A stretch of 64,000 nt of DNA from Rhodospirillales bacterium (lineage in GTDB: Bacteria > Pseudomonadota > Alphaproteobacteria > ATCC43930 > CGMCC-115725): positions 1-64,000 of the forward strand of contig DAHUYF010000117.1 in NCBI GenBank assembly GCA_027315365.1, read 5' to 3'. This document shows positions 10,926-28,153 of the stretch, one piece after another. Numbering within the stretch: the stretch's first letter is position 1; every line of letters starts with the position of its first letter. The notes beneath the pieces are model-generated. The model had not been told where the DNA came from and did not search any database. It saw nothing but the letters and a program-made list of their open reading frames with translations. A program made the translations under genes and the position numbers.

Positions 10926-11071
10926 CGCTCCTCGGGGCCGAGCAGGCGATCGCCGCGATCGGCCTCGAACCGCATCCCGAAGGCGGCCATTTCCGCGAGA
11001 CCTTTCGCGGCGGTTGGGCGCCTTTGGCAAACCCGCGCGGCGGGTTCGTCCGCGGCGGCGGGCTGGCCTAA
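10922..11071 (+). pseudogene. Truncated DUF985-type cupin (5' fragment)
   Basis: A 49-aa frame. The first 31 residues (MTLLGAEQAIAAIGLEPHPEGGHFRETFRG) match the N-terminus of DUF985 cupin proteins (LxLxPHPEGGxFRE), which are normally about 140-170 aa. The conservation then stops abruptly and the frame ends after an unrelated WAPLANPRGGFVRGGGLA. The start overlaps the GST stop (ATGA). The broken 3' side abuts the convergent lipase-like gene, with a CTAA overlap. Most likely a deletion remnant left when the downstream DNA was joined. Confidence 0.7.
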
Positions 11072-11994
11072 GCCACCACCCCATCGAGCCAGCCGATGAG
11101 GTCGCGGGTGATCTCGTCGCGATTGAGCTCGTTGAACAGCTCATGGCGGCAGTCGGGATAGAAGCGGTGCGTCACCCGCTCGAGCCCGGCGGCACGGTAG
11201 GCTGCGAGGAGCTGGGTCACGCTCCTGGTGTTCTCACCCACGGGGTCGCGGCTACCGGCGATGACATGGATGGGAAGCCGCTTGGGAATGCGCGCCTGCC
11301 GCGCCGGAGCGGTGACGTCGCCGAGCGCATCGAGCATGTCGATCCAGAGCTGCACGGTGGCGGGAAAGCCGCAGAGGGGATCGGCGACGTAGTTGTCGAT
11401 CTCGGCGGCGTCGCGCGACAGCCAGTCGAAGGCGGTGCGTGCCGGCGCAAACTGCTTGTTGAAGGCGCCGAAGCTCAGCGCGTGGATGAGCGGGCTGCGG
11501 CCGCGCGCCCCCAGCCGCCAGCGCTCGATCCGGGCGACCAGGCGACCCGCCGAGGCGAGCGCGCCGGGTCGGCCGCCGGAGCCCGACAGCACCGCGCCGG
11601 CAAGCTCGTTGCCGCGCTCGCTGATGAAGTGCTGCGCCATGAACGAGCCCATGGAATGGCCGAGGAGCAGGAGCGGTAGTCCCGGGTGCTCGGCGGCCAT
11701 GCGGCAATGAAGCTGGCCGAGATCGTCGATGCAGCGGCGCCAGCCCGCGCGCTCGGCGAAGAAGCCCAGCTCCGCCGGCGTCGGCGCGGTGCGGCCATGG
11801 CCGCGATGGTCGCCGGCATAGACCGCGTAGCCGGCGCCGGTCAGTGCCGCGGCCAGCCGCGCATAGCGGCCGACATGCTCGGCCAGCCCGTGCGCGATCT
11901 GGAGCGCCGCCTTGGGCGCGCCCTCCGGCAGCCAGGCATGGACGAAGCGCGCCGCCCCGTCGGGCGCGGCGAGCGTGAAGGTCGTGCCGCGCAC
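11068..11994 (-). CDS. Alpha/beta hydrolase, monoacylglycerol lipase/lysophospholipase-like
   Basis: A 308-aa hydrolase. ALQIAHGLAEHVGRYARLA and YAGDHRGHGRT are hallmarks of the Hydrolase_4 (lysophospholipase L2/monoacylglycerol lipase) group; the nucleophile is in LLGHSMGSFMAQ, the acid probably in AGSRDPVG and the His in CRHELFNE. It would hydrolyse lipid or PHA-oligomer-like esters. GTG at 11994 is taken as start because GGGGGGA lies 7 bases upstream and the family begins there. It is last in the minus-strand series after phaB, suggesting co-expression with PHA genes. Stops overlap with the cupin remnant. Confidence 0.86.
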   Translation of the reverse strand: MRGTTFTLAAPDGAARFVHAWLPEGAPKAALQIAHGLAEHVGRYARLAAALTGAGYAVYAGDHRGHGRTAPTPAELGFFAERAGWRRCIDDLGQLHCRMAAEHPGLPLLLLGHSMGSFMAQHFISERGNELAGAVLSGSGGRPGALASAGRLVARIERWRLGARGRSPLIHALSFGAFNKQFAPARTAFDWLSRDAAEIDNYVADPLCGFPATVQLWIDMLDALGDVTAPARQARIPKRLPIHVIAGSRDPVGENTRSVTQLLAAYRAAGLERVTHRFYPDCRHELFNELNRDEITRDLIGWLDGVVA

Positions 11995-12017
11995 CCGCGT
12001 CCCCCCGGACCGCAAGC

Positions 12018-12740
12018 CTAATACATGTGCTGGCCGCCGTTGATCGACATGGTCGAACCCGTCAGGAACCCGCCCTCGTCCGACACCAGGAACAGCACGC
12101 CGCGGGCGATTTCGGTCGCGTGGCCGAGGCGCCCCACCGGAATGCGCGCGATGATCTTGTCGAGCACGTTCTGCGGCACGGCGCGGACCATGTCGGTATC
12201 GATATAGCCGGGCGCGATCGCGTTCACCGTGACGCCGCGGCCCGCCCCTTCCTGGGCGAGCGCCTTGGTGAAGCCGTGGATGCCGGATTTGGCGGCGGCG
12301 TAATTCACCTGGCCGTATTGCCCCGCCTGGCCGTTGATCGAGCCGATATTGACGATGCGGCCGAAGCCGCGCTCGCGCATGCCCTCGATCACCAGCCGGC
12401 ACATGTTGAAGCAGGAGGTCAGGTTCGTCGCGATCACCTGGCCCCACTGCTCCGGCGTCATCTTGTGCAGCACCGCGTCGCGGGTGATGCCGGCATTGTT
12501 GACCAGAATCTCGACCGCCCCGAGCTCCTGCTCGATGCGCTTGACCCCGGCTTCGCAGGCCTTGAAATCGCCGACATCGAATTTGTAGGCGGTAATACCG
12601 GTTTCCTGCGTGAAGCGCCGCGCCGCCTCGTCATCGCCGGCGTAATTCGCCGCCACCTTGTTGCCGGCGTCCCTGAGCGCCACCGAGATCGCCCGCCCGA
12701 TGCCGCGCGTTCCGCCCGTCACCACCGCTACCCGTGCCAT
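12018..12740 (-). CDS. phaB: Acetoacetyl-CoA reductase
   Basis: A 240-aa short-chain dehydrogenase with VAVVTGGTRGIGRAIS (NADPH site), NNAGITRDAVLHKM, the catalytic Ser in IVNIGSINGQAGQYGQVNY and Tyr/Lys in NYAAAKSG. The GSINGQAGQYGQ.NYAAAKSG.HGFTKALAQE signature is that of PhaB rather than FabG. It reduces acetoacetyl-CoA to (R)-3-hydroxybutyryl-CoA for PHB synthesis. It lies 82 bp downstream of phaA on the same strand and 23 bp upstream of the lipase-like gene. Confidence 0.95.
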   Translation of the reverse strand: MARVAVVTGGTRGIGRAISVALRDAGNKVAANYAGDDEAARRFTQETGITAYKFDVGDFKACEAGVKRIEQELGAVEILVNNAGITRDAVLHKMTPEQWGQVIATNLTSCFNMCRLVIEGMRERGFGRIVNIGSINGQAGQYGQVNYAAAKSGIHGFTKALAQEGAGRGVTVNAIAPGYIDTDMVRAVPQNVLDKIIARIPVGRLGHATEIARGVLFLVSDEGGFLTGSTMSINGGQHMY

Positions 12741-12822
12741 GGTCTCCTCCCTATGCCGTTGCCGGCCGCCGCCGCGGATTGGCCCGTCGCCGCGCCTTCC
12801 GCAGACAGGTTACTCCAAGCGC

Positions 12823-13998
12823 TCAACCGCGCTCCACGCACATAGCAATTCCCATGCCGCCGCCGATACAGAGCGTCGCCAGCCCGCGCTTGGCATTGCG
12901 CCTCTGCAACTCGTGCAGCAGGGTCACCAGGACGCGCGTCCCCGAGGCGCCGATGGGATGGCCGAGCGCGATGGCGCCGCCATTCACGTTCACCTTTTCG
13001 GGATCCCAGCCCATGTCCTTGTTGACGGCGCAGGCCTGCGCGGCAAAAGCCTCGTTGGCCTCGATCAGGTCGAGATCGTCGGCCTTCCAGCCGGCACGCT
13101 TCAGCGCCAGCCGGCTTGCCGGGATCGGCCCCGAGCCCATCACCGCTGGATCGACCCCGGCGGTCGCCCAGGCGACGATGCGGGCCAACGGCTTGGCGCC
13201 GCGGCGCTGCGCCTCGTCGGCGCTCATCAGCACCACCGCCGCGGCGCCGTCATTGATGCCGGAGGCGTTGCCGGCGGTGACGGTGCCGTTCTTGTCGAAG
13301 GCCGGCCGCAGCTTGGCCAGCGCGTCCATCGTCGTGCCGTGCTTGGGGTACTCGTCGGCATCGACCAGCACGTCGCCCTTGCGCCCGGCGATCTTCACCG
13401 GCGTGATTTCCTCCTTGAACCGGCCGGCCTTCTGCGCCGCCTCGGCGCGCTCCTGCGAGCGTTGGGCGAGCTGATCCTGCTGCTCGCGCGTGATCTGCCA
13501 GCGCTGCGCCACGTTCTCGGCGGTATTGCCCATGTGATAGCCGTTGAAGGCATCCCACAGCCCGTCCCTGATCATTGTATCGACAAGGTCGGTGTTGCCC
13601 ATCTTGACGCCGTTGCGCAGATGGACGCAATGCGGCGCGCGGCTCATGCTCTCATGGCCGCCGGCGACCACGATCGCGCTGTCGCCGGTGCGAAGCGCCT
13701 GAAAGCCGAGCGCCACGGTGCGCAGGCCGGAGCCGCAGACCTGGTTCACGGTATAGGCGGTCGCCTCGGGCGGGATGCCGGCGGCGATGGCCGCCTGGCG
13801 TGCCGGGTTCATGCCCTCGCCGGCGCCGAGGATCTGGCCCATGATGACCTCGGAGACCTCCTTGGCATCGACATTGGCCCGGCGCATCGCCTCGGCGATG
13901 GCGATCTGCCCCAGGTAATGCGCGGGGACGGCACTCAAGCTGCCGTTGAAGGAGCCGATCGGGGTGCGCACCGCGCCGGCAATGACGATTTCGCTCAT
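12823..13998 (-). CDS. phaA: Acetyl-CoA acetyltransferase (beta-ketothiolase)
   Basis: A 391-aa thiolase. Motifs: [17 protein letters not shown] (residues 6-22), the acyl-accepting Cys88 in [22 protein letters not shown], and the C-terminal catalytic segments [14 protein letters not shown] (His) and [10 protein letters not shown] (Cys). It condenses two acetyl-CoA to acetoacetyl-CoA in the cytoplasm. Full length for the family. Together with phaB downstream it supplies monomers for PHB; it is separated from the upstream PhaC-like gene by a hairpin-containing 124-bp gap. Confidence 0.96.
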
Positions 13999-14052
13999 CG
14001 GGACATCCTCGTGCTGGGGGGCTCGCTATCCTCTCTTACATAGACCTCGGCA

Positions 14053-14070
14053 GCGGGTTTGGAAACCCGC
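14053..14070 (-). terminator. Hairpin between PhaC-like gene and phaA
   Basis: Perfect 8-bp stem GCGGGTTT/AAACCCGC with a 2-nt loop, 53 bp past the stop of the PhaC-like gene. No T-run follows on either strand, so it may attenuate rather than stop transcription into phaA. Confidence 0.4.
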
Positions 14071-14122
14071 CGCGAGGGCGATGTCAGGCTAAGGCCGCCG
14101 GGCCGGCGCGACATGATCTGGA

Positions 14123-15352
14123 TCAAGCCGGCCGCCTCGCGGGAACCGCCGTGCGCCGCAGCCACTGCGCCATCGGTGCCCAGACCACCCCCGGCGCCTC
14201 GCGCGCCACGACCATGCCGATATGGCCGAGCGGCGGCGCCAGCCGTTCCGCCGTCGGCAACAGCTCGGCGAGCGCGCCGGCGGTCTTCGGCGGCACGATA
14301 CGATCCTGCGCCGGCAGGACGACGAGGCTCGGCCGCTCGACGCGCTGCGGCAGCACCGCCCGGCCGGCGATGCGCCAGCGCCCGCGCCCCGGCGTGTTGG
14401 CGCCGTACCAACCGCCCAGGCAGTCGCGCGCCACCGGCAGCGCCAGCGGCACGCCGTCATTGAGCCAATCCTCGAGGGCGACGAAGTCGCGCTCCTCGGG
14501 GCAGCCCGGAGCGAGGGCGGCGAAGCGCGAGAATTTACGCAGCGCCAGCAGCGGGTCGAGCGCCGCGAACAGCGCCTGCAGCAGATCGACCGGGACCTCG
14601 CCGAGTGCCGCGAAGCTGCGCGTCAGCGGCTCGGTCATTCCGCCCAGCAGCCGCGCCTGGCCGGCGCGCTCGGCGTGGAAGTCCCAGGGCGTCGCCAGCA
14701 GCGCCAGCGAGGCGACGAGGCCCGGCCGGCGGTCGGCGAGCGCCAGCGCCAGAAGCCCGCCCATGCAGTAGCCGAGGACGGCAAAGGGCGCCCCGGCCAG
14801 CGACGACGCCGCCGCCGCCGCGGCCTCCAGCCGGCCGGCGACATAATCGGTGAGATCGAAACCGCGCTCGAGCGGGCCGGGCTTGCCCCAATCGACCAGC
14901 AGCGGCCGCAGCCCCTCGCCGGCAAGAAAGCGCAGCAGGCTCTTGTCCTCGGCGAGATCGAGAATATAGGCGCGGTTGATCAGCGACGGCACCACCAGCA
15001 CCGGCAGCCCGCGGCCGGCGCCGTAATCCAGCAGGCGCGTCGAGCCCTCCTGCCAGAGCACCGGTGGCTCGTCCAGGTCGCGGCGGTAGGGATGCCGTCG
15101 GTAGCGCTCGAGCCCGTTCAGGAACCCCTCGCCGCGGATCCGCAGCTCGGCATCGACGGCGGCGGCGAAGGCCTCAGCGGCGACGGGCTCGAGGCTTTGC
15201 CGGAGCGCGTTTGCCGCGGGCAGGAGTTCGGGCCTCCAGGGCAGCAAGCCGTCCCTCAAGAGCGGCAAGGCGGCCCGCGAGCTCATCCAGAGCGTCGCCG
15301 CACTGGCGAGATGAAGCGGCAGCGGCCGCGGCCCCTGACGCGGCGCCGTCAT
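14123..15352 (-). CDS. Short PHA synthase-like alpha/beta hydrolase
   Basis: A 409-aa protein. It carries the PHA-synthase lipase-box variant GYCMGG (Cys196), Asp350 in LPAQDRIVPP and His377 in LGHIGMVVAREA, i.e. a complete Cys-Asp-His triad in PhaC spacing, plus VPSLINRAYILDL and LLVDWGKPG typical of PhaC. Class I synthases are near 590 aa; this lacks most of the N-terminal domain and is nearer in size to class III PhaC. It may polymerise hydroxyacyl-CoA or act as a related esterase. The start MTAPRQGPRPLPLHL at 15352 lies 179 bases inside the upstream gene in another frame (see findings). Confidence 0.85.
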   Translation of the reverse strand: MTAPRQGPRPLPLHLASAATLWMSSRAALPLLRDGLLPWRPELLPAANALRQSLEPVAAEAFAAAVDAELRIRGEGFLNGLERYRRHPYRRDLDEPPVLWQEGSTRLLDYGAGRGLPVLVVPSLINRAYILDLAEDKSLLRFLAGEGLRPLLVDWGKPGPLERGFDLTDYVAGRLEAAAAAASSLAGAPFAVLGYCMGGLLALALADRRPGLVASLALLATPWDFHAERAGQARLLGGMTEPLTRSFAALGEVPVDLLQALFAALDPLLALRKFSRFAALAPGCPEERDFVALEDWLNDGVPLALPVARDCLGGWYGANTPGRGRWRIAGRAVLPQRVERPSLVVLPAQDRIVPPKTAGALAELLPTAERLAPPLGHIGMVVAREAPGVVWAPMAQWLRRTAVPARRPA

Positions 15353-15518
15353 GCCGGCCCACACCAAAGGCGGGCGCCCATGCGTTCGGCGCAAGTCCAG
15401 CGAGCAGCCGGGCAAGGCTGTCCGCGAGGTCGGGGTCGGCCGCCACGGCGATCAGCTGCTCCTGCCATAGGTCGAGATACCTCTTGGCCAGGCTCGCGAG
15501 GTCCGGCGGTTCCGCCAT
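15174..15518 (-). CDS. Small helical protein, possible PHA-synthase partner
   Basis: A 114-aa protein, not assignable to a named family by me. The N-terminus (MAEPPDLASLAKRYLDLWQE) and the heptad-like segment ALDELAGRLAALEGRLAALE (about residues 78-97) followed by a basic tail (ARGKRAPAKPRARRR) recall phasin or PhaE-type coiled coils. Its last 59 codons overlap the start of the PhaC-like gene in a different frame. It lies upstream of that gene on the same strand and divergent from phaR. A subunit or granule-associated partner of the synthase-like protein is an inference from context. Confidence 0.62.
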   Translation of the reverse strand: MAEPPDLASLAKRYLDLWQEQLIAVAADPDLADSLARLLAGLAPNAWAPAFGVGRHDGAASGAAAAAASSRQCGDALDELAGRLAALEGRLAALEARTPARGKRAPAKPRARRR

Positions 15519-18907: not shown

Positions 18908-19574
18908 GGCAGAGAAAATCCCGGCGGGGACGCAAGCGCCTCGTTTACCGCCCGCCCGGGGTCCTGTCAAACGACGCGCGCGATGGACAGCCATGCGCCC
19001 GCAGAAAGGCCGCTCGCGCCGTGATTGTGACCGGGACGCCCGCGCGCTTCGCGCCCCGCGCGCACGCCGGCTCCACGGACGCAGCCGCGGGTCGGCGGAA
19101 CTTCAATCACGCAGCGAGTGTTAGCGACCCGATGCGCGAACCAAAAAATTCTGTCGGTGCCGCCGCCGCGGTGGACGGAGGTGCGCCGCGGAGGAATGCC
19201 GAAGAGGTTCGGCGCAAGGCAACGGCTGGGCGGCGCTTACCGGCGCTTCCAGACGGCAGCCGCGTGCACCTGCCGCTACCGCACATTGCCCGAGCGGGCG
19301 AGCTATTCAGCTGAAGGATATGCCAGCCAGCGCGCGCCTTTCCCGGCACCCGCAAAATCTTCGGTACCGCGCGCGAGATGATTGCAGACACGAAATCCGG
19401 TTGAAGTCGCCGCCCTCGTCGCCTACCTTGGTTTCTTACCGGGACGTTGCATGGAAGTGATCCGTCCACATCGGGCCCGACAATACGCACCTTCCGTATG
19501 AACGTTGCCCTGACGGCTTGTCGGACGCCTCGCGGCGCACCGCTCCCTTCCCTCCTGCCTCGTCATCAAATCCC
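18908..19574. other. Long intergenic stretch, no convincing gene
   Basis: About 670 bases. Several open frames up to about 130 codons cross it on both strands but none has conserved features, a plausible binding site or typical codon use. TTGAAG (19401) and TACCTT (19424) with 17-bp spacing could be a weak promoter for the XRE gene at 19575. Could hold a small RNA or decayed DNA; nothing can be asserted. Confidence 0.4.
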
Positions 19575-19958
19575 ATGAACACGACGGAATTGAAGCGAAC
19601 GACCGGCCGCACCCAGGATATCGACCGGCATGTCGGTGCCCGGATCCGCGAGCGTCGGATCATGCTCGGCCTGACGCAGCAGCAGCTCGCCGACCTCATC
19701 GGCGTGACCTACCAGCAGGCGCACAAATACGAACGCGGCATCAACCGCGTGTCGGCGGGACGGTTGTTCGAGATCGCCCGGGTGCTGAGCGTTCCGGTCA
19801 GCTATTTCTTCGAAGGACTGGACAACCAGAGCGGCCGGCCGGTGAGCCAGCGCGAGCGCATGTGCCTGGAGCTGGCGCGCAATTTCGCGCAGATCCCGAA
19901 CGAGCGGCATCAGGAGGCGCTGAGCCAACTCGCCCGCGCGCTGGCGACCCAGCATTAG
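19575..19958 (+). CDS. XRE-family transcriptional regulator
   Basis: A 127-aa protein. After a short basic leader, residues about 17-75 form a Cro/CI helix-turn-helix: VGARIRERRIMLGLTQQQLA, IGVTYQQAHKYERGINRVSA, GRLFEIARVLSVPVSYFFEG. The C-terminal 40 residues (ERMCLELARNFAQIPNERHQ) form a helix typical of a compact alphaproteobacterial regulator group with no ligand domain. ATG 19575 is the likely start; a longer frame from 19518 adds an unconserved leader. No obvious target operon adjoins it. Confidence 0.9.
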   Translation: MNTTELKRTTGRTQDIDRHVGARIRERRIMLGLTQQQLADLIGVTYQQAHKYERGINRVSAGRLFEIARVLSVPVSYFFEGLDNQSGRPVSQRERMCLELARNFAQIPNERHQEALSQLARALATQH

Positions 19959-20375: not shown

Positions 20376-20646
20376 AGTTTCATATCATATCATAGATGCT
20401 TTAAACATCATATATTAATAGCAAAGGCTCATGATTAGAGAAATGAGCGACGGCAGCGCTGACGCGCCGGCACGATTGCGTCGCTATGGCCTGTCGGGCT
20501 GGCCTATCTCGGCCTCCCGCCGGGACCGTCATCACGGTGGCGGCGTCCCGTATCGACCGGATGCAGTCGGGACCGTTGACCTCTATTTAGAGGCATGATA
20601 TTAGAATATTGATTGTTTAAACATCATACAACCATCATAAATGATG
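20376..20646. promoter_or_regulatory. AT-rich region with repeated CATCATA motifs
   Basis: Two AT-rich patches flank a GC-rich core. TTTAAACATCATA occurs twice exactly (20400-20412 and 20616-20628); TCATATCATATCATAG precedes the first, and a perfect dyad CATCAT-AA-ATGATG (20633-20646) follows the second. The composition contrasts sharply with the GC-rich surroundings. It lies upstream of the small XRE gene and the membrane-complex operon, so an operator/promoter region is the simplest reading. Confidence 0.55.
20431..20598 (+). CDS. Possible small protein between the repeats
   Basis: An ATG-started frame of 55 codons (begins MIREMSDGSA, ends VDLYLEA), preceded by AAAGG five bases before the start. 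It fits exactly between the two TTTAAACATCATA repeats. No family recognised. It may be chance. Confidence 0.25.
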   Translation: MIREMSDGSADAPARLRRYGLSGWPISASRRDRHHGGGVPYRPDAVGTVDLYLEA

Positions 20647-20710: not shown

Positions 20711-20968
20711 TTGCTCACCGCCGCTCAACTGAAGGCCGCCCGAGCGCTGGTCGGCATGGAGCAGCGGGCGCTGGCCGAAGCGTCGGGCGTGTCGCTGCCG
20801 ACCATTCAGCGCATGGAAGCAAGCACCGGCACGGTTCGCGGCGTGATCGAGACCCTGATGAAGGTCATGGCCGCGCTCGAAACCGCCGGGGTCGAGTTCA
20901 TCAACGAAGGCGCGGCCAGCGCCGGCGGCGGCGGCCGTGGCGTGCGCCTGCGCAAGCGCTCAGAGTGA
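20711..20968 (+). CDS. Small XRE-type regulator
   Basis: An 85-aa protein, TTG start. LTAAQLKAARALVGMEQRAL, then ASGVSLPTIQRMEASTGTV, is a Cro/CI helix-turn-helix; the tail ALETAGVEFINEGAASAGGG and GRGVRLRK is the usual ending of a small alphaproteobacterial regulator group in which the EFI..G..GVRL segment forms a short beta structure. It lies 72 bp upstream of the membrane-complex operon on the same strand and downstream of the CATCATA repeats, which are its plausible binding sites. Start codon TTG is supported by the family's usual MLTxxQxxAAR beginning. Confidence 0.85.
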   Translation: MLTAAQLKAARALVGMEQRALAEASGVSLPTIQRMEASTGTVRGVIETLMKVMAALETAGVEFINEGAASAGGGGRGVRLRKRSE

Positions 20969-21040
20969 GCATCCGAGCGACATGCCTTTGTGCACGGCCA
21001 TGCAAGCGCGCGTGACGCCAGGCCGCACCAGGGCGGTCGC

Positions 21041-23062
21041 TTGCCGCCTCCGGTCTCTTCCGCCGTGCTGACCCTCGTCGCCGCCCTGCTCGCCCTCTAC
21101 GGCGCCGCGGCGCTGCTCGGCGTCGTCGGCGGCCGGCGCGTGCTCGTACCGGTCTACGTCCTGAGCGGGTTGGCCGCCGCCGCCACGGCGCTCGGCGCCG
21201 CCCGATTTCTCGCTTCCGGCGCGGCGCCCGAGACCGCCGTGCTGCCGTTGGGGCTGCCCTGGATCGGCGCGCATTTCCGCATCGACGCCTTGAGCGCCTT
21301 CTTCCTGTTCGTGCTCGGCACGGCGGGGGCGCTTACCAGCCTGTTCGCGGTCGATTACGGCGGCCATGACGACGATCCCGGCCGCGTGCTGCCCTTCTAT
21401 CCCGCCTTTCTTGCCGGCATGAGCCTGGTGCTCGTCGCCGACGACGCCTTTAGCTTCCTCGTCAGCTGGGAGACGATGTCGCTCGCCTCCTGGCTGCTGG
21501 TGCTGGCGACGCATCGCCAGAGCGAGACGCGCAGCGCGGCGTTTCTCTATCTCGTCATGGCAAGCATCGGCGTCGGCGCGCTGTTGCTGGGCTTCGGGCT
21601 GCTGGCCGGCGGCAGCGGCGACTTCGCCTTCGCCGCGCTGCGCGGTGCCGCGCTCGGTCCGTGGAAGAGCGGACTGTTCTTCGCGCTTGCCGTCATCGGC
21701 ACCGGCTCCAAGGCGGGCATGGTGCCGCTCCATGTCTGGCTGCCGCCGGCGCATGCCGCGGCGCCGAGCCACGTCTCGGCGCTGATGAGCGGCGTCATGA
21801 CCAAGGTGGCGATTTACGGCTTCATCCGCCTGCTGTTCGATCTCGCCGGACCGGCGCAATGGTGGTGGGGCGCGGTGGTCGTGGCGCTCGGCGGCATCAC
21901 CGCCTTGCTCGGCGTGCTCTACGCGGTGATGCAGAGCGATGTGAAGCGTCTGCTCGCCTATTCGACGGTCGAGAACATCGGCATCATCCTCATCGGCCTC
22001 GGCCTGGCGCTTGCCTTCCACGCCAACCACCTCGACCTGCTGGCGCAGCTGGCGCTGATCGCGGCGCTGTTGCACGCGTTCAACCATGCGACGTTCAAGA
22101 GCCTGCTGTTCCTGGGATCGGGCGCCATCCTGGTGGCGACGCATAGCCGCGACATGGACAAGCTGGGCGGCCTGATCCATCGCCTGCCGATGACCGCCGT
22201 GGCCTTTCTCGTCGGCGCGGTGGCCATCTCCGGGCTGCCGCCGTTCAACGGCTTCGTGTCGGAATGGCTGACCTTCCAGGCGATCGTCAACGGCGCGCTG
22301 CTGCCGCAATGGCTGCTGAAGCTGGCGGTCCCGGTGGTCGGTGCCATGCTGGCGTTGGCGGTGGCGCTCGCCGGGGTCGCCCTGGTCAAGGCGTTCGGCA
22401 TCATCTTCCTCGGCCGCCCGCGCAACAATGCCGCCGCGACGGCGCAGGAGACAGGCGCCCTGATGCTCGCCGCGATGCTGGCGCTGGCCGCGCTTTGCAT
22501 GGTGACGGGCGTGGCGCCGCAGCTCGTTCTGGCCCTGGCGCAGCCGGCGGCGACGCTGCTGCTGCCGCACGGCGCCGGCCTCGACCTCTCGAGCCCGCTC
22601 TGGCTTGCGCCGCTTGGTCCCGACCACAGCTCTTACAGCGGCGGCGTCATCCTGCTGGCGGTGACGTTCCTTGCGGCGCTGCTCGGGCTGGTCATCCACC
22701 GCTTCGCCTCCGACCGCGCGCGCCGCTCCGCGCCGTGGGATTGCGGCTTCCCGGACACGCGACCCGAGACCCAATACAGCGCCGCCGGCTTCGCACAGCC
22801 GATCCGCCGCATCTTCGGCGCGACGGTTTTCGCCGCGCGCGAGCGCATCGACATGCCGGCGCCGGGCGACACACGTCCCGCGCGGTTCGAGATCAGTTTT
22901 CGCGACCCCGTCTGGGAAGCGATCTACGCCCCGACGGCGCGGCTCGTCTCGCTGCTCGCCGACCGGCTCAACCTGCTGCAGTTCCAGACCATCCGCCGCT
23001 ACCTCTCGCTGATGTTCGCAGCGCTGGTGTTGCTGCTGCTCATCGTCGCGGTGAGCCAATGA
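21041..23062 (+). CDS. hyfB: HyfB-like proton-translocating membrane subunit
   Basis: A 673-aa polytopic membrane protein of the NuoL/NuoM/MrpA family. FRIDALSAFFLFVLG, SWETMSLASWLLV, GSKAGMVPLHVWLPPAHAAA (conserved Lys of the antiporter-like half channel), VKRLLAYSTVENIG and NHATFKSLLFLGSGAI are characteristic; the C-terminal extension (SAPWDCGFPDTRPETQYSA and RRIFGATVF) identifies HyfB/HycC rather than NuoL. Start uncertain: TTG 21041 has AGGGCGG upstream; an open frame reaches GTG 20990. It overlaps the next gene by ATGA. First gene of a six-gene complex. Confidence 0.92.
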   Translation: MPPPVSSAVLTLVAALLALYGAAALLGVVGGRRVLVPVYVLSGLAAAATALGAARFLASGAAPETAVLPLGLPWIGAHFRIDALSAFFLFVLGTAGALTSLFAVDYGGHDDDPGRVLPFYPAFLAGMSLVLVADDAFSFLVSWETMSLASWLLVLATHRQSETRSAAFLYLVMASIGVGALLLGFGLLAGGSGDFAFAALRGAALGPWKSGLFFALAVIGTGSKAGMVPLHVWLPPAHAAAPSHVSALMSGVMTKVAIYGFIRLLFDLAGPAQWWWGAVVVALGGITALLGVLYAVMQSDVKRLLAYSTVENIGIILIGLGLALAFHANHLDLLAQLALIAALLHAFNHATFKSLLFLGSGAILVATHSRDMDKLGGLIHRLPMTAVAFLVGAVAISGLPPFNGFVSEWLTFQAIVNGALLPQWLLKLAVPVVGAMLALAVALAGVALVKAFGIIFLGRPRNNAAATAQETGALMLAAMLALAALCMVTGVAPQLVLALAQPAATLLLPHGAGLDLSSPLWLAPLGPDHSSYSGGVILLAVTFLAALLGLVIHRFASDRARRSAPWDCGFPDTRPETQYSAAGFAQPIRRIFGATVFAARERIDMPAPGDTRPARFEISFRDPVWEAIYAPTARLVSLLADRLNLLQFQTIRRYLSLMFAALVLLLLIVAVSQ

Positions 23063-24006
23063 GATCGGCACTGCTGGAGCTGCTGCAGCTTGCCCTGCCG
23101 GTAGGGCTGGCGCCACTGCTCAGCGGGCTGGTGCGCAAGCTGAAGGCGCGGCTCAACGGCCGCATCGGCCCCGGCCTGCTGCAGCCCTATCGCGATCTGT
23201 CGCGGCTGCTGCGCAAGGAGGTGGTGCTGGCGCCCAACGCCTCCTGGCTGTTCCGTACCAGCCCTTACCTCATCTTCGCCGCCATATGGCTCGCCGCGGC
23301 AATCGTACCGACCTTCGCCACCGGCCTGCTGCTGAGCCGCACCGCCGATCTCATCGCGCTGGTGGCGCTGCTCGGCACGGCGCGCTTCGCGCTGGCGCTG
23401 GCCGGCATGGATGTCGGCACCGGCTTCGGCGGCATCGGCGCGTCGCGCGAGATGATGATCGCCTCGCTCGCCGAGCCGGCGATGCTGATGGTCACCTTCA
23501 CCGTGGCGCTGGTGGTGCGCTCGACCTCGCTGCAGCACATCGCCGAGTACCTGCTGACGCACGATGTCGGCATCCGCATCTCGCTGCTGCTGGGCGTGCT
23601 GTCGCTGCTCATCGTCGCCATCGCCGAGAACGCGCGCATTCCGGTGGACAATCCCGCCACCCATCTCGAGCTCACCATGGTGCACGAGGCGATGGTGCTG
23701 GAATATTCCGGCCGCCATCTCGCGCTGATCGAGGGCGCGGCGATGGTGAAGCTGCTGCTCTACGTCTCGCTCGTCGCCGCGATCTTCTTCCCCTGGGGCC
23801 TGGCGACGGATATCGACGACGCCCGCGCGCTCGCCGTCGGATTGGGCAGCTACGTGCTGAAGCTCGCCCTGGCCGGCGTCGCGCTCGCCTTCCTTGAGAC
23901 CAGCATCGCCAAGATGCGCGTCTTCCGTCTTGCCGAACTGCTCGGCGGCGCGCTGCTGCTGGGTCTGCTGGCGGCGATCTTCCTCTATGTGTCGCAGGAG
24001 CTGTAG
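23059..24006 (+). CDS. hyfC: HyfC-like membrane subunit (NuoH homologue)
   Basis: A 315-aa membrane protein with about eight helices. RLNGRIGPGLLQPYRDLSRLLRKE near residue 35 and IAENARIPVDNPATHLELTM near residue 195 are the two cytoplasmic loops of NuoH/HyfC that contact the peripheral arm and form the quinone-like cavity entrance. In hydrogenase-4 and formate hydrogenlyase it anchors the soluble subunits. Its start overlaps hyfB by 4 bp and the next gene starts 9 bp after its stop. Confidence 0.93.
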   Translation: MRSALLELLQLALPVGLAPLLSGLVRKLKARLNGRIGPGLLQPYRDLSRLLRKEVVLAPNASWLFRTSPYLIFAAIWLAAAIVPTFATGLLLSRTADLIALVALLGTARFALALAGMDVGTGFGGIGASREMMIASLAEPAMLMVTFTVALVVRSTSLQHIAEYLLTHDVGIRISLLLGVLSLLIVAIAENARIPVDNPATHLELTMVHEAMVLEYSGRHLALIEGAAMVKLLLYVSLVAAIFFPWGLATDIDDARALAVGLGSYVLKLALAGVALAFLETSIAKMRVFRLAELLGGALLLGLLAAIFLYVSQEL

Positions 24007-24014
24007 GAGGCAAG

Positions 24015-24686
24015 ATGCCGATCTTCGCCAACCCCGCCTACGACACCGCGCATCTGCTCGACACCTTCGTGCTGGTGCTGAGCTTCGCGCTGCTCTATCA
24101 GCGCCGGCTTTTCGCCATGATCACCCTCTATGCTTGGCAGGCCTTCTTTCTGGCGGCGGCCGCCGCATGGCAGGCCTATGCGCAGGACGCGCCGCACCTC
24201 TACATCACCGCCGCCATCGCCCTGGTCTTCAAGGCGATCGTCATTCCGCTCGCCCTCCACCGCATCATCATCTATCTCGACATCCACCGCAGCATTGAGA
24301 CCGCGCTCGGAATCGGCCCCACCATGGCGGTCGGCGTGGGCCTGGTGGCGCTCTCGATCCTGCTCGTGCTGCCGGTGACCGCCGCCTCGGGCGCGCTGAC
24401 GCGCGAGAGCCTCGCCGCGGCGCTGTCGGTGGTGCTGCTGGGCCTCCTGATGATGATCACGCGGCGCAACGCGGTCAGCCAGGTGGTGGGGTTCATGTCG
24501 CTCGAAAACGGCCTCATCCTCGCGGCGGTCGGCGTCAAGGGCATGCCGCTGGTGGTGGAGCTCTCCGTCGCCTTCTCGGTGATGGTCGCGTTCATCATCT
24601 TCGGCGTCTTCTTCTTCCATATCCGCGAGCGCTTCGACACGCTCGACGTCCATGACATGGAGCAGTTCCGCGGAGAGGGACGATGA
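24015..24686 (+). CDS. hyfE: HyfE-like membrane subunit
   Basis: A 223-aa membrane protein with six or seven helices, matching HyfE: LLDTFVLVLSFALLYQRRLF, IVIPLALHRIIIYL, and the NuoK-like core VSQVVGFMSLENGLILAAVG (about residues 154-173) with a Glu in a membrane helix, as used for proton transfer in NuoK/HyfE. It ends in a cytoplasmic tail (RERFDTLDVHDMEQFRGEGR) and overlaps hyfF by 4 bp. Confidence 0.92.
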   Translation: MPIFANPAYDTAHLLDTFVLVLSFALLYQRRLFAMITLYAWQAFFLAAAAAWQAYAQDAPHLYITAAIALVFKAIVIPLALHRIIIYLDIHRSIETALGIGPTMAVGVGLVALSILLVLPVTAASGALTRESLAAALSVVLLGLLMMITRRNAVSQVVGFMSLENGLILAAVGVKGMPLVVELSVAFSVMVAFIIFGVFFFHIRERFDTLDVHDMEQFRGEGR

Positions 24687-26116
24687 GCCCGGTCCACGCC
24701 GTCCTCGCCACGCCGGCCATCGCCGCCATCGTACTCGCGCTGCTGCCGGGCTACCGCCTTGCCGCGCGCCTCAACGTGCTGGCGGCGGCGCTGACGCTGT
24801 CGGCCAGCATCGTGCCGTTCTTCGCGCGGCCGGCAACGACGCCCTTCCTGCTGATCGACGACTTCAATATCTATCTCGTCGCGCTCACCGCCTTCGTCGC
24901 CTTCACCACCAGCCTGTTCAGCGCGCGCTACGTGCTGCACGAGGTGGAGATCGGTCGCCTGCCGGCGGCGAACCTCCGCTTCTACCATGCCATGTACCAG
25001 GCGTTCTGCTTCACCATGCTGCTGGCGCTGACCGCCAACAACCTCGGCGTGCTGTGGGTGGCGGTCGAGGGCGCGACGCTCACCACCGTGCTGATGGTCG
25101 GGCTCTACCGCACGCGCGAGGCGCTGGAAGCGGCGTGGAAGTATTTCATCCTCTGCGGCGTCGGCATCGCGCTGGCGCTCTTCGGCACCATCCTGATGTA
25201 TCTCGCCGCCCAGCCGGTGATGGGCGAAGGGCTGCCGGCGATGACCTGGTCGGCGATCCTGCCGCGGGTCGGCGGCTTCAATCCCGCCATCCTCAACCTC
25301 GCCTTCGTCTTCCTGCTGGTAGGGTACGGCACCAAGGTCGGGCTGGCGCCGCTGCATGCCTGGCTGCCGGACGCGCATGCCGAAGGCCCGACGCCGATCT
25401 CGGCGGTGCTGTCGGGATTGCTGCTCAACGTCGCGCTCTATGCCGTGCTGCGCTTCAAGATGCTGCTCGCCGGCAACGCCCTCGCCGTGGCACCCGGCCC
25501 GCTGATGATCGCCATGGGCCTCGGCTCGCTGCTGCTGGCGAGCTTCATGCTCTACCGCCGGCGCGACATAAAGCGGCTCTTCGCCTATTCCTCGATCGAG
25601 CACATGGGCATCATCACCTTCGCCTTCGGCATGGGCGGCGGCCTGGCCAATTTCGCGGGACTGCTGCACATGACCATGCACAGCCTGACCAAATCGGCGA
25701 TCTTCTTCGCCGTCGGCCACATCACCCAGATCAAGGGCACGCAGAAGATCGCCGAGATCCGCGGCCTCACCGCCAGCCAGCCGCTGCTCGGCTGGGCGCT
25801 GGTGATCGGCGTCGTCGCCATCGCCGGATTGCCGCCCTTCGGCGTCTTCACCAGCGAGTTCCTGGTGCTGACCACCAGCTTTGCGCGCCAGCCGCTGCTG
25901 GCGCTGCCGGTGCTGGCCGGGCTGCTGGTGGGATTCGGCGCGCTGGTGCTGCGGCTGCAGGGCCTCGCCTTCGGCGCCGGCGAAGGCGGCGGCAAGGCGA
26001 GCCCGGCGGCGCTACTGCCGCTGTTCATCCATTTCGCCATGGTGCTGGCGGCCGGGATCTACCTCCCGGGGCCGCTCGTCGCCTGGTTCCAGAACGTCGC
26101 GCGGCTGCTGGGCTGA
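24683..26116 (+). CDS. hyfF: HyfF-like antiporter-type membrane subunit
   Basis: A 477-aa polytopic protein of the NuoL/M/N family: NNLGVLWVAVEGATLTTVLM, LEAAWKYFILCGVGIALAL, YGTKVGLAPLHAWLPDAHAE (half-channel Lys), RRRDIKRLFAYSSIEHMGII and LHMTMHSLTKSAIFFAVGHI. HyfF subunits are the second antiporter-like pump of hydrogenase-4-type complexes. Thus the complex has two pump modules (HyfB and HyfF). A gap of 7 bp separates it from the large-subunit gene. Confidence 0.93.
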   Translation: MSPVHAVLATPAIAAIVLALLPGYRLAARLNVLAAALTLSASIVPFFARPATTPFLLIDDFNIYLVALTAFVAFTTSLFSARYVLHEVEIGRLPAANLRFYHAMYQAFCFTMLLALTANNLGVLWVAVEGATLTTVLMVGLYRTREALEAAWKYFILCGVGIALALFGTILMYLAAQPVMGEGLPAMTWSAILPRVGGFNPAILNLAFVFLLVGYGTKVGLAPLHAWLPDAHAEGPTPISAVLSGLLLNVALYAVLRFKMLLAGNALAVAPGPLMIAMGLGSLLLASFMLYRRRDIKRLFAYSSIEHMGIITFAFGMGGGLANFAGLLHMTMHSLTKSAIFFAVGHITQIKGTQKIAEIRGLTASQPLLGWALVIGVVAIAGLPPFGVFTSEFLVLTTSFARQPLLALPVLAGLLVGFGALVLRLQGLAFGAGEGGGKASPAALLPLFIHFAMVLAAGIYLPGPLVAWFQNVARLLG

Positions 26117-26123
26117 GGCAACG

Positions 26124-27629
26124 ATGGGCAACGGCAGCGATCTCCTCGACTTTCTCGCCCGCGGCGAGACGCTGGCGCAGCGCCCCTGGCCGCGCTTCCG
26201 CCTGGCGCGCGAGCAGTGGCTGGATCTCGCCACCCACCTCGCCGTCGCCGACTGGGCGCTGCTCGGCCTCTGGGCGGAGCCGGGCGAGGTGCATGCCGCG
26301 TTCTGCGACGCCGCCGGCGACGCGGTCGCTACCGCGTCGCTCGCTTGCGCCGACGGCGGCTTCCCGTCGCTCGCCGCGGTGCGCCCGGGCGCGCTCCGGC
26401 TCGAGCGCGCGGTGCAGGATCTGGTCGGGCTGCACGCCGAGGGTATTGCCGACGCGCGGCCCTGGCTCGATCACGGCCAGTGGCACAGCCGCGACGGCAT
26501 CGCCGCCGGCGCGCGCCCGGCGAGCCAGTATGACTTCCTTACCGCCGAGGGCGAGGGCCTGCACCAGATCGCAGTCGGGCCGGTCCATGCCGGGACCATC
26601 GAGCCCGGCCATTTCCGCTTCCATTGCAGCGGCGAGGCGGTGGTGCGGCTGGAACAGCGCCTGGGCTATGCGCACAAGGGCACCGAGCGCCTGATGGAGG
26701 GCAAGCCGGCCGCGGCTGCGGCGCGCCTGGCCGGCCGGCTCTCCGGCGACAGCACCGTTGCCGCGGCGCTGGCCTTCGCCCGTGCGGTGGAGGCGGCGAG
26801 CGGAACCGCGGTGCCGGAACGCGCGGCCTGGCTGCGCGCGCTGCTTGCCGAGCTCGAGCGCATCGCCAATCATCTCGGCGACATCGGCGCCATCGCCAAC
26901 GACGCGGCCTTTACCTTCCTGCAATCGCATCTGACGGTGCTGCGCGAGATGGTGCTGCGTGCCGCCCAATCCTGCTTCGGCCATCGCCTGATGATGGATG
27001 TCGTGATCCCCGGCGGGCTCGTACGCGATCTCGATGGCGCCGGCATCGGACGGCTGCGCGGTCTCGCATCGACGCTCCGGCCGCGCTTTGCCGAGCTGAT
27101 GGCGGTCTATGACCGCAAGCCGTCGCTGCTCGACCGCACCGTCGGAACCGGAATCGTCAACGCCGAGCTGGCGCGGCGCTTCGCCGCCGGCGGCTTCGTC
27201 GGCCGCGCCTCCGGGCGCGGCTTCGATGCGCGCAAGCACCCGGGCTATCCGCCCTACGACCGGCTCGACTTCGCCGTGCCGGTGCTGAGCGACGGCGACG
27301 TGCACAGCCGCCTGATGATCCGCGCGGGCGAGGTCGAGGCGAGCCTCGGCCTCGTCGGGCAGATCCTCGACCGCCTTCCCGCCGGCCCCGTCCTGGTCCC
27401 GCTCGCGGCCGGCGGCGGCGACGGGATGGCGCTGGTCGAGGGCTTTCGCGGCGACATCCTCGCCTGGGTCGCGCTCGCCGGGGACGGCAGCGTGCGCCGC
27501 GCGCATCTGCGCGATCCCTCCTGGTTCCAATGGCCGCTGCTGGAAGCGGCGATCGAGGGCAACATCGTCGCCGATTTCCCGCTCTGCAATAAGTCCTTCA
27601 ACTGCTCCTATTCCGGACACGACCGCTGA
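26124..27629 (+). CDS. NuoCD/HyfG-like large subunit lacking the NiFe ligands
   Basis: A 501-aa protein fusing a NuoC-like N-domain (WALLGLWAEPGEVHAAFCDA, then FPSLAAVRPGALRLERAVQD) to a NuoD/hydrogenase-large-subunit domain (GYAHKGTERLMEG, LERIANHLGDIGAIANDAAF, MMDVVIPGG). Where group 4 NiFe hydrogenases have CGIC, this protein reads RLSGDSTV (about residues 205-212), as in NuoD; the C-terminal DPCxxC is also missing, the end reading LCNKSFNCSYSGHDR (C-x5-C). It therefore cannot bind a standard NiFe centre. This is the pattern of Ehr (energy-converting hydrogenase-related) complexes. Its reactant is unknown. Confidence 0.88.
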   Translation: MGNGSDLLDFLARGETLAQRPWPRFRLAREQWLDLATHLAVADWALLGLWAEPGEVHAAFCDAAGDAVATASLACADGGFPSLAAVRPGALRLERAVQDLVGLHAEGIADARPWLDHGQWHSRDGIAAGARPASQYDFLTAEGEGLHQIAVGPVHAGTIEPGHFRFHCSGEAVVRLEQRLGYAHKGTERLMEGKPAAAAARLAGRLSGDSTVAAALAFARAVEAASGTAVPERAAWLRALLAELERIANHLGDIGAIANDAAFTFLQSHLTVLREMVLRAAQSCFGHRLMMDVVIPGGLVRDLDGAGIGRLRGLASTLRPRFAELMAVYDRKPSLLDRTVGTGIVNAELARRFAAGGFVGRASGRGFDARKHPGYPPYDRLDFAVPVLSDGDVHSRLMIRAGEVEASLGLVGQILDRLPAGPVLVPLAAGGGDGMALVEGFRGDILAWVALAGDGSVRRAHLRDPSWFQWPLLEAAIEGNIVADFPLCNKSFNCSYSGHDR

Positions 27630-28153
27630 TGTGGAAGCTCCTGGCCAGGACGCTGCTGACGAAACCGCTGCCGATCGCGCCGCCGGCGCCGGAGCCGGCG
27701 CAGCTCGCGGAGCTCGGCGAGCGGCTTGCCGCGGTCGCCCGCGCGCAGCTCGGCCGCAGCTTGTCGATCCGCCAGGTCGATGCCGGCTCGTGCAATGGCT
27801 GCGAACTCGAGATCCAGGCGCTCGGCACCCCGTTCTACGATCTCGAGCGCTTCGGGCTGCGCTTTGTCGCCTCGCCGCGCCATGCCGACGTGCTGCTGGT
27901 GAGTGGTCCGGTGACGACCAACATGCGCGAGGCGCTGGAGCGGACCTATGCCGCGACCCCCGATCCCAAATGGGTGGTCGCGGTCGGCGATTGCGCGCGC
28001 GACGGCGGGCTCTTCGCCGAGAGCTATGCGGTGACCGGCGGCGTCTCGGCGGTGATCCCGGTCGACCTCCATATCGCCGGCTGCCCGCCCTCGCCGGTAC
28101 AGCTGCTGAGCGGGCTGCTGGCGCTGCTCGAGGCCGCCGCCCGGCGCCGCTGA
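27629..28153 (+). CDS. hyfI: HyfI/NuoB-like FeS subunit
   Basis: A 174-aa protein with all four ligands of the proximal [4Fe-4S] (N2-type) cluster: Cys55 and Cys58 in DAGSCNGCE, Cys122 in VGDCARDGG and Cys152 in AGCPPSPVQLL. HyfI/HycG-type length. It passes electrons next to the membrane module. The start shares a base with the preceding stop (TGATG). It is the last gene of the operon; no ferredoxin-like HyfA/HyfH, formate dehydrogenase or hydrogenase maturation gene follows. It converges on the DUF1328 gene. Confidence 0.93.
   Translation: MWKLLARTLLTKPLPIAPPAPEPAQLAELGERLAAVARAQLGRSLSIRQVDAGSCNGCELEIQALGTPFYDLERFGLRFVASPRHADVLLVSGPVTTNMREALERTYAATPDPKWVVAVGDCARDGGLFAESYAVTGGVSAVIPVDLHIAGCPPSPVQLLSGLLALLEAAARRR

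Follow-up and report, generated by a model that had tools for sequence, protein, structure and literature searches.

A six-subunit Ehr complex encoded in a Rhodospirillales genome, with a conserved polar pocket in place of the NiFe site

We analysed a 64,000-nucleotide stretch of DNA (hereafter the window) that opens contig DAHUYF010000117.1 of a Rhodospirillales bacterium (assembly GCA_027315365.1). On its plus strand, positions 20711-28153 hold seven genes, in the order helix-turn-helix (HTH) gene, hyfB, hyfC, hyfE, hyfF, hyfG and hyfI, and sequence comparison identifies the cluster as encoding a six-subunit Ehr complex, a relative of hydrogenase-4 and complex I whose large subunit lacks the nickel-iron (NiFe) site. 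Judged from the alignments, the pocket left in that subunit is conserved and remodelled, not decayed, with Asp209 and Lys490 as new conserved residues. In the literature Ehr complexes are suspected of coupling a cytoplasmic redox reaction to ion translocation. We tentatively favour an ion pump that is driven by ferredoxin, probably reduces quinone and holds one iron-sulfur (Fe-S) cluster. The genes are as follows.

20711-20968, plus strand: XRE-type HTH regulator gene, 85 amino acids, TTG start, first gene of the operon; PF01381, E 2e-6
21065-23062 (start may be 20990 or 21041), plus strand: hyfB, antiporter-like pump subunit; NF005086 (hydrogenase 4 subunit B), 818 bits, cut-off 667
23059-24006, plus strand: hyfC, NuoH/HycD-like membrane anchor with most E-channel residues; PF00146 (NADHdh), 135 bits
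24015-24686, plus strand: hyfE, small membrane subunit, at the same operon position in relatives; NF008556, 84 bits, under the cut-off of 136
24683-26116, plus strand: hyfF, second antiporter-like pump subunit; NF005043, 804 bits, cut-off 533
26124-27629, plus strand: hyfG, NuoCD-like large subunit without a NiFe site; PF00346 (Complex1_49kDa)
27629-28153, plus strand: hyfI, NuoB-like subunit with a single Fe-S cluster; PF01058 (Oxidored_q6), 116 bits

Neighbouring genes of the cluster overlap or leave gaps of at most about 100 bases, and the start codon of hyfB is ambiguous: GTG (20990), TTG (21041) or GTG (21065). A preliminary description of this DNA had proposed an Ehr-type complex, with the NiFe site lost and the pump anatomy retained, made from the six genes hyfB to hyfI. 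That proposal is supported; the six genes are real, stand in the order given and agree with the family models, hyfE below its cut-off. The gene list was incomplete at its upstream end, where the operon begins with the 85-residue HTH gene.

The loss of the NiFe site was followed through an alignment of 81 HyfG rows, comprising the window and 80 relatives from named genomes (out of at least 580 confirmed relatives), and through a further set of 15 distant Ehr rows. The positions on which the comparison turns are these.

26601-26603, plus strand: Glu160, counterpart of the proton-transfer residue Glu193 of HycE (MbhL Glu21); 81/81 rows
26742-26753, plus strand: S207-G208-D209-S210, replacing CGIC in the alignment
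27447-27449, plus strand: Arg442, the canopy arginine (HycE Arg478); 80/81 rows, one gap
27588-27623, plus strand: N489-K490-S491-F-N493 ... D500, replacing GSLDPCxxC; N489, K490, S491, N493 and D500 each in 80/81 rows, one gap

HyfG contains both the motif RLSGDSTV and the C-terminal LCNKSFNCSYSGHDR, and alignment to HycE confirmed that the former stands where hydrogenases have CGIC and that DPCxxC is missing from the end, as had been described. When E. coli HycE, HyfG and NuoCD were aligned with the window protein, C241, C244, C531 and C534 of HycE fell, without gaps, on S207, S210, S495 and G498; the four Cys ligands of a group 4a [NiFe]-hydrogenase are thus S, S, S and G. These replacements recur in the relatives: S207 in 80 of the 81 rows, with a Cys in locus L070 as the sole exception, S495 in 79 (one A, one gap), G498 in 80 (one gap) and S210 in 74, the rest being A or T. 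The distant rows all have Gly at 498, show M and P as well at 210, and at 207 carry S (11), A (2), C (1) or G (1). Cys at 207 therefore occurs in two rows altogether, L070 and L160, and no row among the 81 and the 15 has more than one Cys at the four ligand positions. The two C-terminal Cys of HyfG do not align with Ni ligands; position 494 is Cys in 76 of 81 rows, with three G, one A and one gap. A frameshift or misread concealing cysteines was ruled out, since the frame is open, the same motif is found in the relatives, and none of the 80 relatives has more than one ligand-position Cys (only L070, at 207, has any). The residues that hold the quinone headgroup in complex I are missing too, the Tyr and His of NuoD aligning with G208 and I159.

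Roles were assigned to the pocket residues from passages of PMC9474812 and PMC7684303. In the former, the counterparts of R442, N249, H250, E403 and R361 make up the proton route of HycE and complex I. D209, H250, R361 and E403 were found in all 81 rows and N249 in 76, the other five having His. Conservation extends to the distant rows, where R442, K490, H250, R361 and E403 are present in 15/15 and E160 and D209 in 14/15 each. The canopy Asp, termed strictly conserved across the superfamily in a passage of PMC9474812, is replaced by Asn493 in HyfG and by Asn in 14 of the 15 distant rows; Allomeiothermus has Asp. A search for conserved pocket residues, which the preliminary description had recommended, thus yielded Glu160, Asp209, Lys490, Asn493, Arg442 and the proton relay. 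A variant of Ehr was seen in locus L162 (proteobacterium G328), whose large subunit is without the EPGHF loop (GPVFGGVEASSQF) and has lost part of the NKS signature (LLKSFNPSHAGCDL).

The remaining subunits retain the parts expected of electron transfer and pumping. All four Fe-S ligands of HyfI are in place, as claimed earlier (C55, C58, C122 and C152, each in 93 of 94 rows). HyfB keeps Glu136, Lys216, Lys247, Lys345 and Glu400, and HyfF keeps Glu129, Lys218, Lys337 and Glu392; these include the Glu, Lys, His/Lys and Glu types of what we take to be transmembrane helices (TM) TM5, TM7, TM11 and TM12, and bear out the earlier statement that two antiporter-like pumps are kept. HyfC retains R109, E131, E139, E190 and E210, five of the eight residues assigned to the E-channel of HycD; the other three have changed (E201 to His202, E199 to Ala200, Y102 to Ala103), and His202, His209, Arg219 and His220 are specific to the family. 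HyfC had been described as quinone-site-forming. Its role as a membrane anchor with most of the E-channel stands, but the description claims too much, because the large subunit has lost the complex I quinone ligands and HyfC itself departs from HycD at three of its eight E-channel residues.

Placement in a tree set the large subunit apart from catalytic hydrogenases. A maximum-likelihood tree of 55 rows, which took in 22 of the 80 relatives, no published Ehr reference rows, and had many unsupported inner forks, separated all Ehr rows by a 100/100 branch from HycE/HyfG, MbhL, NuoD and two other group 4 NiFe subunits. Placement among proven hydrogenases, which the preliminary description had named as grounds for withdrawing its reading, was ruled out by this split. 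By sequence the nearest solved structure was HycE (7z0s_E, E 2e-52). The same chain was nearest by fold, with Z 42.9 and a root mean square deviation of 2.8 over 476 residues, the best among the 50 matches listed, in which chains of the complex I 49-kDa subunit came next (Z 41.2 to 38.9 over 318-338 residues). Chains of MBH and MBS were not among these 50, which is no evidence against kinship. The query was an AlphaFold model built from 63 sequences (mean predicted local distance difference test score, pLDDT, 84.6); a first model from 12 sequences (pLDDT 72.9) had been dropped for its disordered pocket.

The window cluster thus joins a large subunit homologous to that of group 4 hydrogenases and NuoD, without the Ni/Fe-binding CxxC motifs, to antiporter-like and NuoH-like membrane subunits within one operon. 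Complexes of this kind are already known, and the founding papers are reportedly those of Coppi and of Marreiros and colleagues. In the parts of the literature consulted, they are described in Geobacter, Margulisbacteria, Nitrospira and Sulfobacillus, with the same combination of a group-4-like large subunit lacking Ni/Fe-binding motifs and membrane subunits of the complex I or Hyf type; passages of the Nitrospira and Sulfobacillus genome papers state their function as unknown. The clade of the window differs in its six subunits, in having no adjoining dehydrogenase that we could find, and, in part of the clade, in an upstream XRE regulator with ACATCA boxes.

Comparison with better characterised relatives sharpens this picture. 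Hydrogenase-4 (formate hydrogenlyase 2, Hyf) and formate hydrogenlyase 1 (HycE) give the best large-subunit match by structure and sequence and have the same kinds of membrane subunit, but the window complex has no NiFe ligands, HyfA, HyfD, HyfH and HycI were not found, and the canopy Asp is Asn. With complex I (NuoB/C/D/H/L/M/N) it shares the large-subunit fold (Z up to 41.2), most of the E-channel and the pumps; it differs in lacking the quinone Tyr and His, in having no NuoE/F match nearby and, by comparison with a passage of PMC9474812, in a CxxC in HyfI where NuoB has adjacent Cys. The sulfane sulfur reductase MBS of Pyrococcus is likewise described, in part of PMC7684303, as an MBH and complex I relative that has lost the quinone residues, but the equivalent of MbhL Glu21 is lost there and kept in the window clade as Glu160 (81/81); nothing in the gene context points to a sulfur link as in MBS. 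The hyc-like mycobacterial genes rv0082-rv0087 also number six, including hycD, hycP, hycQ and hycE, and a passage of PMC6901956 says that the locus is regulated by the adjoining rv0081. Gene order and regulator both differ from those of the window. The type of the mycobacterial regulator, and the loss of Cys ligands from the large subunit of that locus, are presumed here.

The six-subunit form stands alone and is widespread. All six genes occurred in the same order at 63 of the 80 loci of relatives; 16 loci were cut by contig ends, and L108 had no recognised hyfB. A search of the 80 loci, several of them short, with E. coli hyfA, hyfD, hyfH, hyfJ, hycI, nuoE and nuoF (E 1e-6) gave no match outside the core. 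The true hydrogenase-4 loci L143 and L148-L150 and the Hyc-like L147, which came up together with the distant Ehr loci, do carry the extra subunits. Read directly, the window operon has no HyfA, HyfH or maturation protease, and no NADH-input or NuoI subunit (NuoE/F; NuoI sought through its homologue HyfH). Fourteen of the 15 distant loci (two from betaproteobacteria, twelve from proteobacteria of other classes and one from an Allomeiothermus silvanus plasmid) had the six genes, and the remaining one ended at a contig edge; the stand-alone form is therefore present in two phyla. Ehr was found in 62 of 398 proteobacterial genomes (E below 1e-130) and, counting strong rows, in 24 of 289 alphaproteobacterial genomes sampled. 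In the annotated records examined, its genes are named hydrogenase 4, formate hydrogenlyase, nickel-dependent hydrogenase or NADH dehydrogenase.

The preliminary description had also noted that no maturation, formate dehydrogenase or ferredoxin gene adjoins the operon. None was found among the four flanking genes scanned with family models, which encode an alpha/beta hydrolase, another XRE HTH protein, a fatty acid hydroxylase and a GntR regulator. The 4.97-Mb genome also has an ordinary complex I, encoded separately on contig C115, and scans for promoters and terminators on the plus strand gave nothing useful.

A hint of function came from another alphaproteobacterium, G170, with a genome of 0.90 Mb (33% GC, completeness 100). 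Ehr is frequent in its family (51 of 55 genomes, one of them in two frames). In G170 itself hyfB, hyfE, hyfF, hyfG and hyfI are whole and open, with pocket and cluster residues in place by eye, and complex I is reduced to pieces of nuoB, nuoC and nuoD broken by stop codons and shifts of frame, with no match to nuoF, G, H or I. No heme-copper oxidase (PF00115) and no PF01512 were found (both E<=0.001), nor NifH (E<=1e-80), and the 903 kb searched held no match to cydA (partial query), gltA, aceE, aceF, lpd, sucA, sucB or ndh, nor to rsxA-E, ydbK, pflB or focA. What G170 does have is atpA, B, D and G, UbiA and UbiE domains, an anaerobic glycerol-3-phosphate dehydrogenase (glpABC; GlpC 381 bits, cut-off 278; GlpA 412, cut-off 553) and a fumarate reductase (FrdB 407 bits, cut-off 264; FrdC 167, cut-off 187; a FrdA match) adjoined by an EtfBA pair. 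It also carries a fixA-B-C-X operon with ETF, ETF_alpha and Fer4_ETF_QO domains (Pfam), and an 84-residue ferredoxin frame with two Fe-S motifs, which we take to be kin to FdxN.

FixC (E<=1e-100) was found in eight of the 289 alphaproteobacterial genomes, seven of which have nifH; the eighth is G170, with Ehr and without nifH. In G170, therefore, a nitrogenase-type electron supply outlived nitrogenase, and Ehr is the only complex I-type complex found open. From these genes we infer a chain in G170 from ferredoxin through Ehr and quinone to fumarate reductase. Ehr occurred in four of the eight genomes with FixC versus 20 of 281 without (Fisher p 0.002, uncorrected for relatedness). FixABCX as a general donor to Ehr was nevertheless ruled out, because the window genome lacks it, as do 20 of the 24 Ehr genomes. 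FixABCX in a genome without nifH is seen at locus L191 (10391-13906). G170 is listed in one genus with G704-G707, whose genomes measure 5.7-7.1 Mb; reduction on this scale is unusual among members of a genus.

The mechanism that we tentatively favour starts from Ehr as the proton-pumping and electron-transfer core common to hydrogenase-4 and complex I, in which the NiFe site has given way to the conserved polar pocket. Near the loci of the relatives no ferredoxin-like or NADH-oxidising subunit was found. A small soluble low-potential carrier, most likely ferredoxin, would dock directly on HyfI, and its electron would pass through the single HyfI cluster to the pocket between HyfG and HyfC. The acceptor there, most likely a quinone held by the new residues (Asp209, Lys490, Asn493 and the HyfC histidines), would be reduced and protonated, and this would drive ions out through HyfC, HyfF and HyfB. 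A longer version of the proposal seems doubtful as a whole: Ehr may be a complex I pared down to a pump that takes electrons from ferredoxin to quinone by way of one Fe-S cluster and a new pocket. Such a pump could replace complex I altogether in a reduced anaerobic genome (NADH to FixABCX to ferredoxin to Ehr to quinone to fumarate reductase), and in some of the Alphaproteobacteria its own XRE regulator would switch it by way of ACATCA operators. The preliminary description had named neither donor nor acceptor; the gene content of G170 at most suggests ferredoxin as the donor and quinone as the acceptor.

Several observations weigh against a ferredoxin:quinone pump. Without the headgroup Tyr and His, a quinone would need a different kind of binding, and the HyfG model is weak at 136-184, which includes the beta1-beta2 loop, and at the tip 495-501. 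Clustering of flanking open reading frames across the 80 loci and the window brought out no conserved neighbour other than the HTH gene that might name a donor or partner; a subunit that docks the donor might have its gene in another part of the genome. The window genome has no nifH and no FixC orthologue, and FixC is missing from 20 of the 24 Ehr-bearing genomes of the class sample. In G170, hyfC is split in two pieces at two contig ends, all four fix proteins score under the NCBIfam naming cut-offs (FixX 71 of 166 bits), and other pumps such as bc1 may be present. Its fixABCX may have been retained just to supply other enzymes with reduced ferredoxin, on which radical-SAM and isoprenoid enzymes also depend.

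The flow of electrons might instead be reversed, the proton gradient pushing them from quinol or another donor to ferredoxin for nitrogenase or other enzymes, as in Rnf. Reversible operation is known among energy-converting complexes of this superfamily, and Ehr was found in three of eight genomes with nifH versus 21 of 281 without (Fisher p 0.02, relatedness uncorrected). We consider this unlikely, as 21 of the 24 Ehr genomes of the sample, the window genome included, are without nifH, and G170 has Ehr and no nifH.

Improbable, to our mind, is a supply of electrons from a separately encoded dehydrogenase that docks on HyfI, for example a formate dehydrogenase with NuoE/F-like subunits. Such an arrangement is proposed for Margulisbacteria and Saganbacteria in a passage of PMC6349859, and part of PMC7894505 reports Geobacter Ehr proteins as more abundant with formate than in hydrogen-containing conditions. 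Near the 80 loci, however, nuoE and nuoF gave no match (formate dehydrogenase itself was not queried), the HTH gene was the only recurring neighbour, and G170 lacks PF01512, with neither pflB nor focA in the part searched.

Just as improbable, in our view, is a small polar compound in place of quinone as the substrate reduced in the pocket, with the HyfC side rebuilt to suit. The absent quinone Tyr and His, the new conserved Asp209 and Lys490 and the family-specific His202, His209, Arg219 and His220 of HyfC would fit such a substrate, and MBS, as presented in part of PMC7684303, is a precedent for one that is neither quinone nor H2. No neighbouring gene suggests such a compound, however, and a single cluster with a membrane-facing chamber suits quinone too.

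That the complex is a mere ion antiporter or leak valve, its Fe-S cluster structural, is very unlikely. Both antiporter-like subunits do keep their key residues, but conservation is about as strict in the four cluster ligands, the residues that deliver protons and the pocket as it is in the pump, and a redox-silent complex would not need a conserved cluster and pocket. A hydrogenase whose metal is held by serines, or by cysteines elsewhere, is barely credible: Ser207, Ser210 and Ser495 sit exactly at former Cys positions and L070 and L160 have Cys at 207, but S210 and C494 vary, all rows that extend to position 498 have Gly there, and no match to a maturation protease was found next to the operon.

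The gene upstream of hyfB provides a candidate control. The HTH family came from BLAST clustering of the flanks and was counted with a hidden Markov model made from that cluster, window gene included. The window gene is the sole match of its kind in its genome (E<=0.001). A homologue stands immediately upstream of hyfB on the same strand in 35 of the 78 other loci for which 500 bases or more of upstream sequence were available (two of the 35, L078 and L140, have identical HyfG rows); flank clustering alone placed HTH genes in 36 loci, copies at other positions included. None was seen in the 14 distant loci examined, Allomeiothermus not being among them. In two annotated plasmids the HTH gene overlaps hyfB by a few bases. 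Otherwise the flank clustering returned the antisense frame of the HTH gene and broad, chance-like families (by eye ABC ATPases, TRAP transporters and kinases).

Two direct repeat copies of 31 nucleotides, 77% identical, lie before the window gene.

20382-20412, plus strand: upstream repeat copy 1, with an ACATCA box at 20405-20410, outside the 200 bp scanned; possible operator
20598-20628, plus strand: upstream repeat copy 2, with an ACATCA box at 20621-20626 followed by CATCATAAATGATG; possible operator

Of 34 loci with the HTH gene (33 relatives and the window), 24 had ACATCA within the 200 bases preceding that gene, and the sites numbered 35, versus a mean of 3.75 and a maximum of 8 in shuffles; only two of 29 loci without the HTH gene had it in the 249 bases before hyfB. 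The HTH loci are related, so these counts are not independent events, and because ACATCA is common across the window (29 sites versus 13.6 expected), single sites there carry little weight. A palindrome, GTTTAAAC, was ruled out as operator, being found in one of the 34 loci, and ACATCA was kept instead. From the position of the gene and the boxes we infer that the window Ehr operon is under the control of its own XRE-type regulator. A second XRE-type HTH gene is found at 19521-19958 (PF01381, E 6e-15), 0.75 kb before it, and on the Allomeiothermus plasmid the Ehr operon is preceded, at a distance of about 1.2 kb and in the same orientation, by an ArsR/SmtB regulator gene (L141, 2470-2808).

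To what was known of Ehr complexes this analysis adds the exact residue exchange, a preserved proton route with the canopy Asp changed to Asn, the six-subunit stand-alone form in two phyla, a regulator with boxes, and a genome that has kept Ehr while losing complex I. The residue map offers point mutants, and the regulator and its boxes open a way to learn when Ehr is produced; G170, with Ehr and a defunct complex I, reduces the candidate partners to a few. If a quinone is reduced without residues thought essential in complex I, Ehr would be an informative test case for models of redox-driven pumping across the superfamily.

Some minor observations were made in passing. An alphaproteobacterial family, f28 (2.0-2.5 Mb; loci L145, 9375-16167, minus strand, and L146), has extremely diverged proteins in an apparent B-C-E-F-G-I order (B to F by eye, in L145); their HyfG, at about 25% identity and with a branch length of 5, is without equivalents of Glu160 and Arg442, and the HyfI cysteines are retained. 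A spermidine-synthase-like gene, identified by eye, recurs in six loci, four of them in Bradyrhizobium (L037, L040, L045, L054), and an annotated spermidine-synthase gene lies beside the Ehr cluster of a Burkholderia multivorans plasmid (L138). Elsewhere in the window, 11068-15415 encodes two proteins of the alpha/beta hydrolase type; a weak match of one of them to the PhaC N-terminus hints at polyhydroxybutyrate metabolism.

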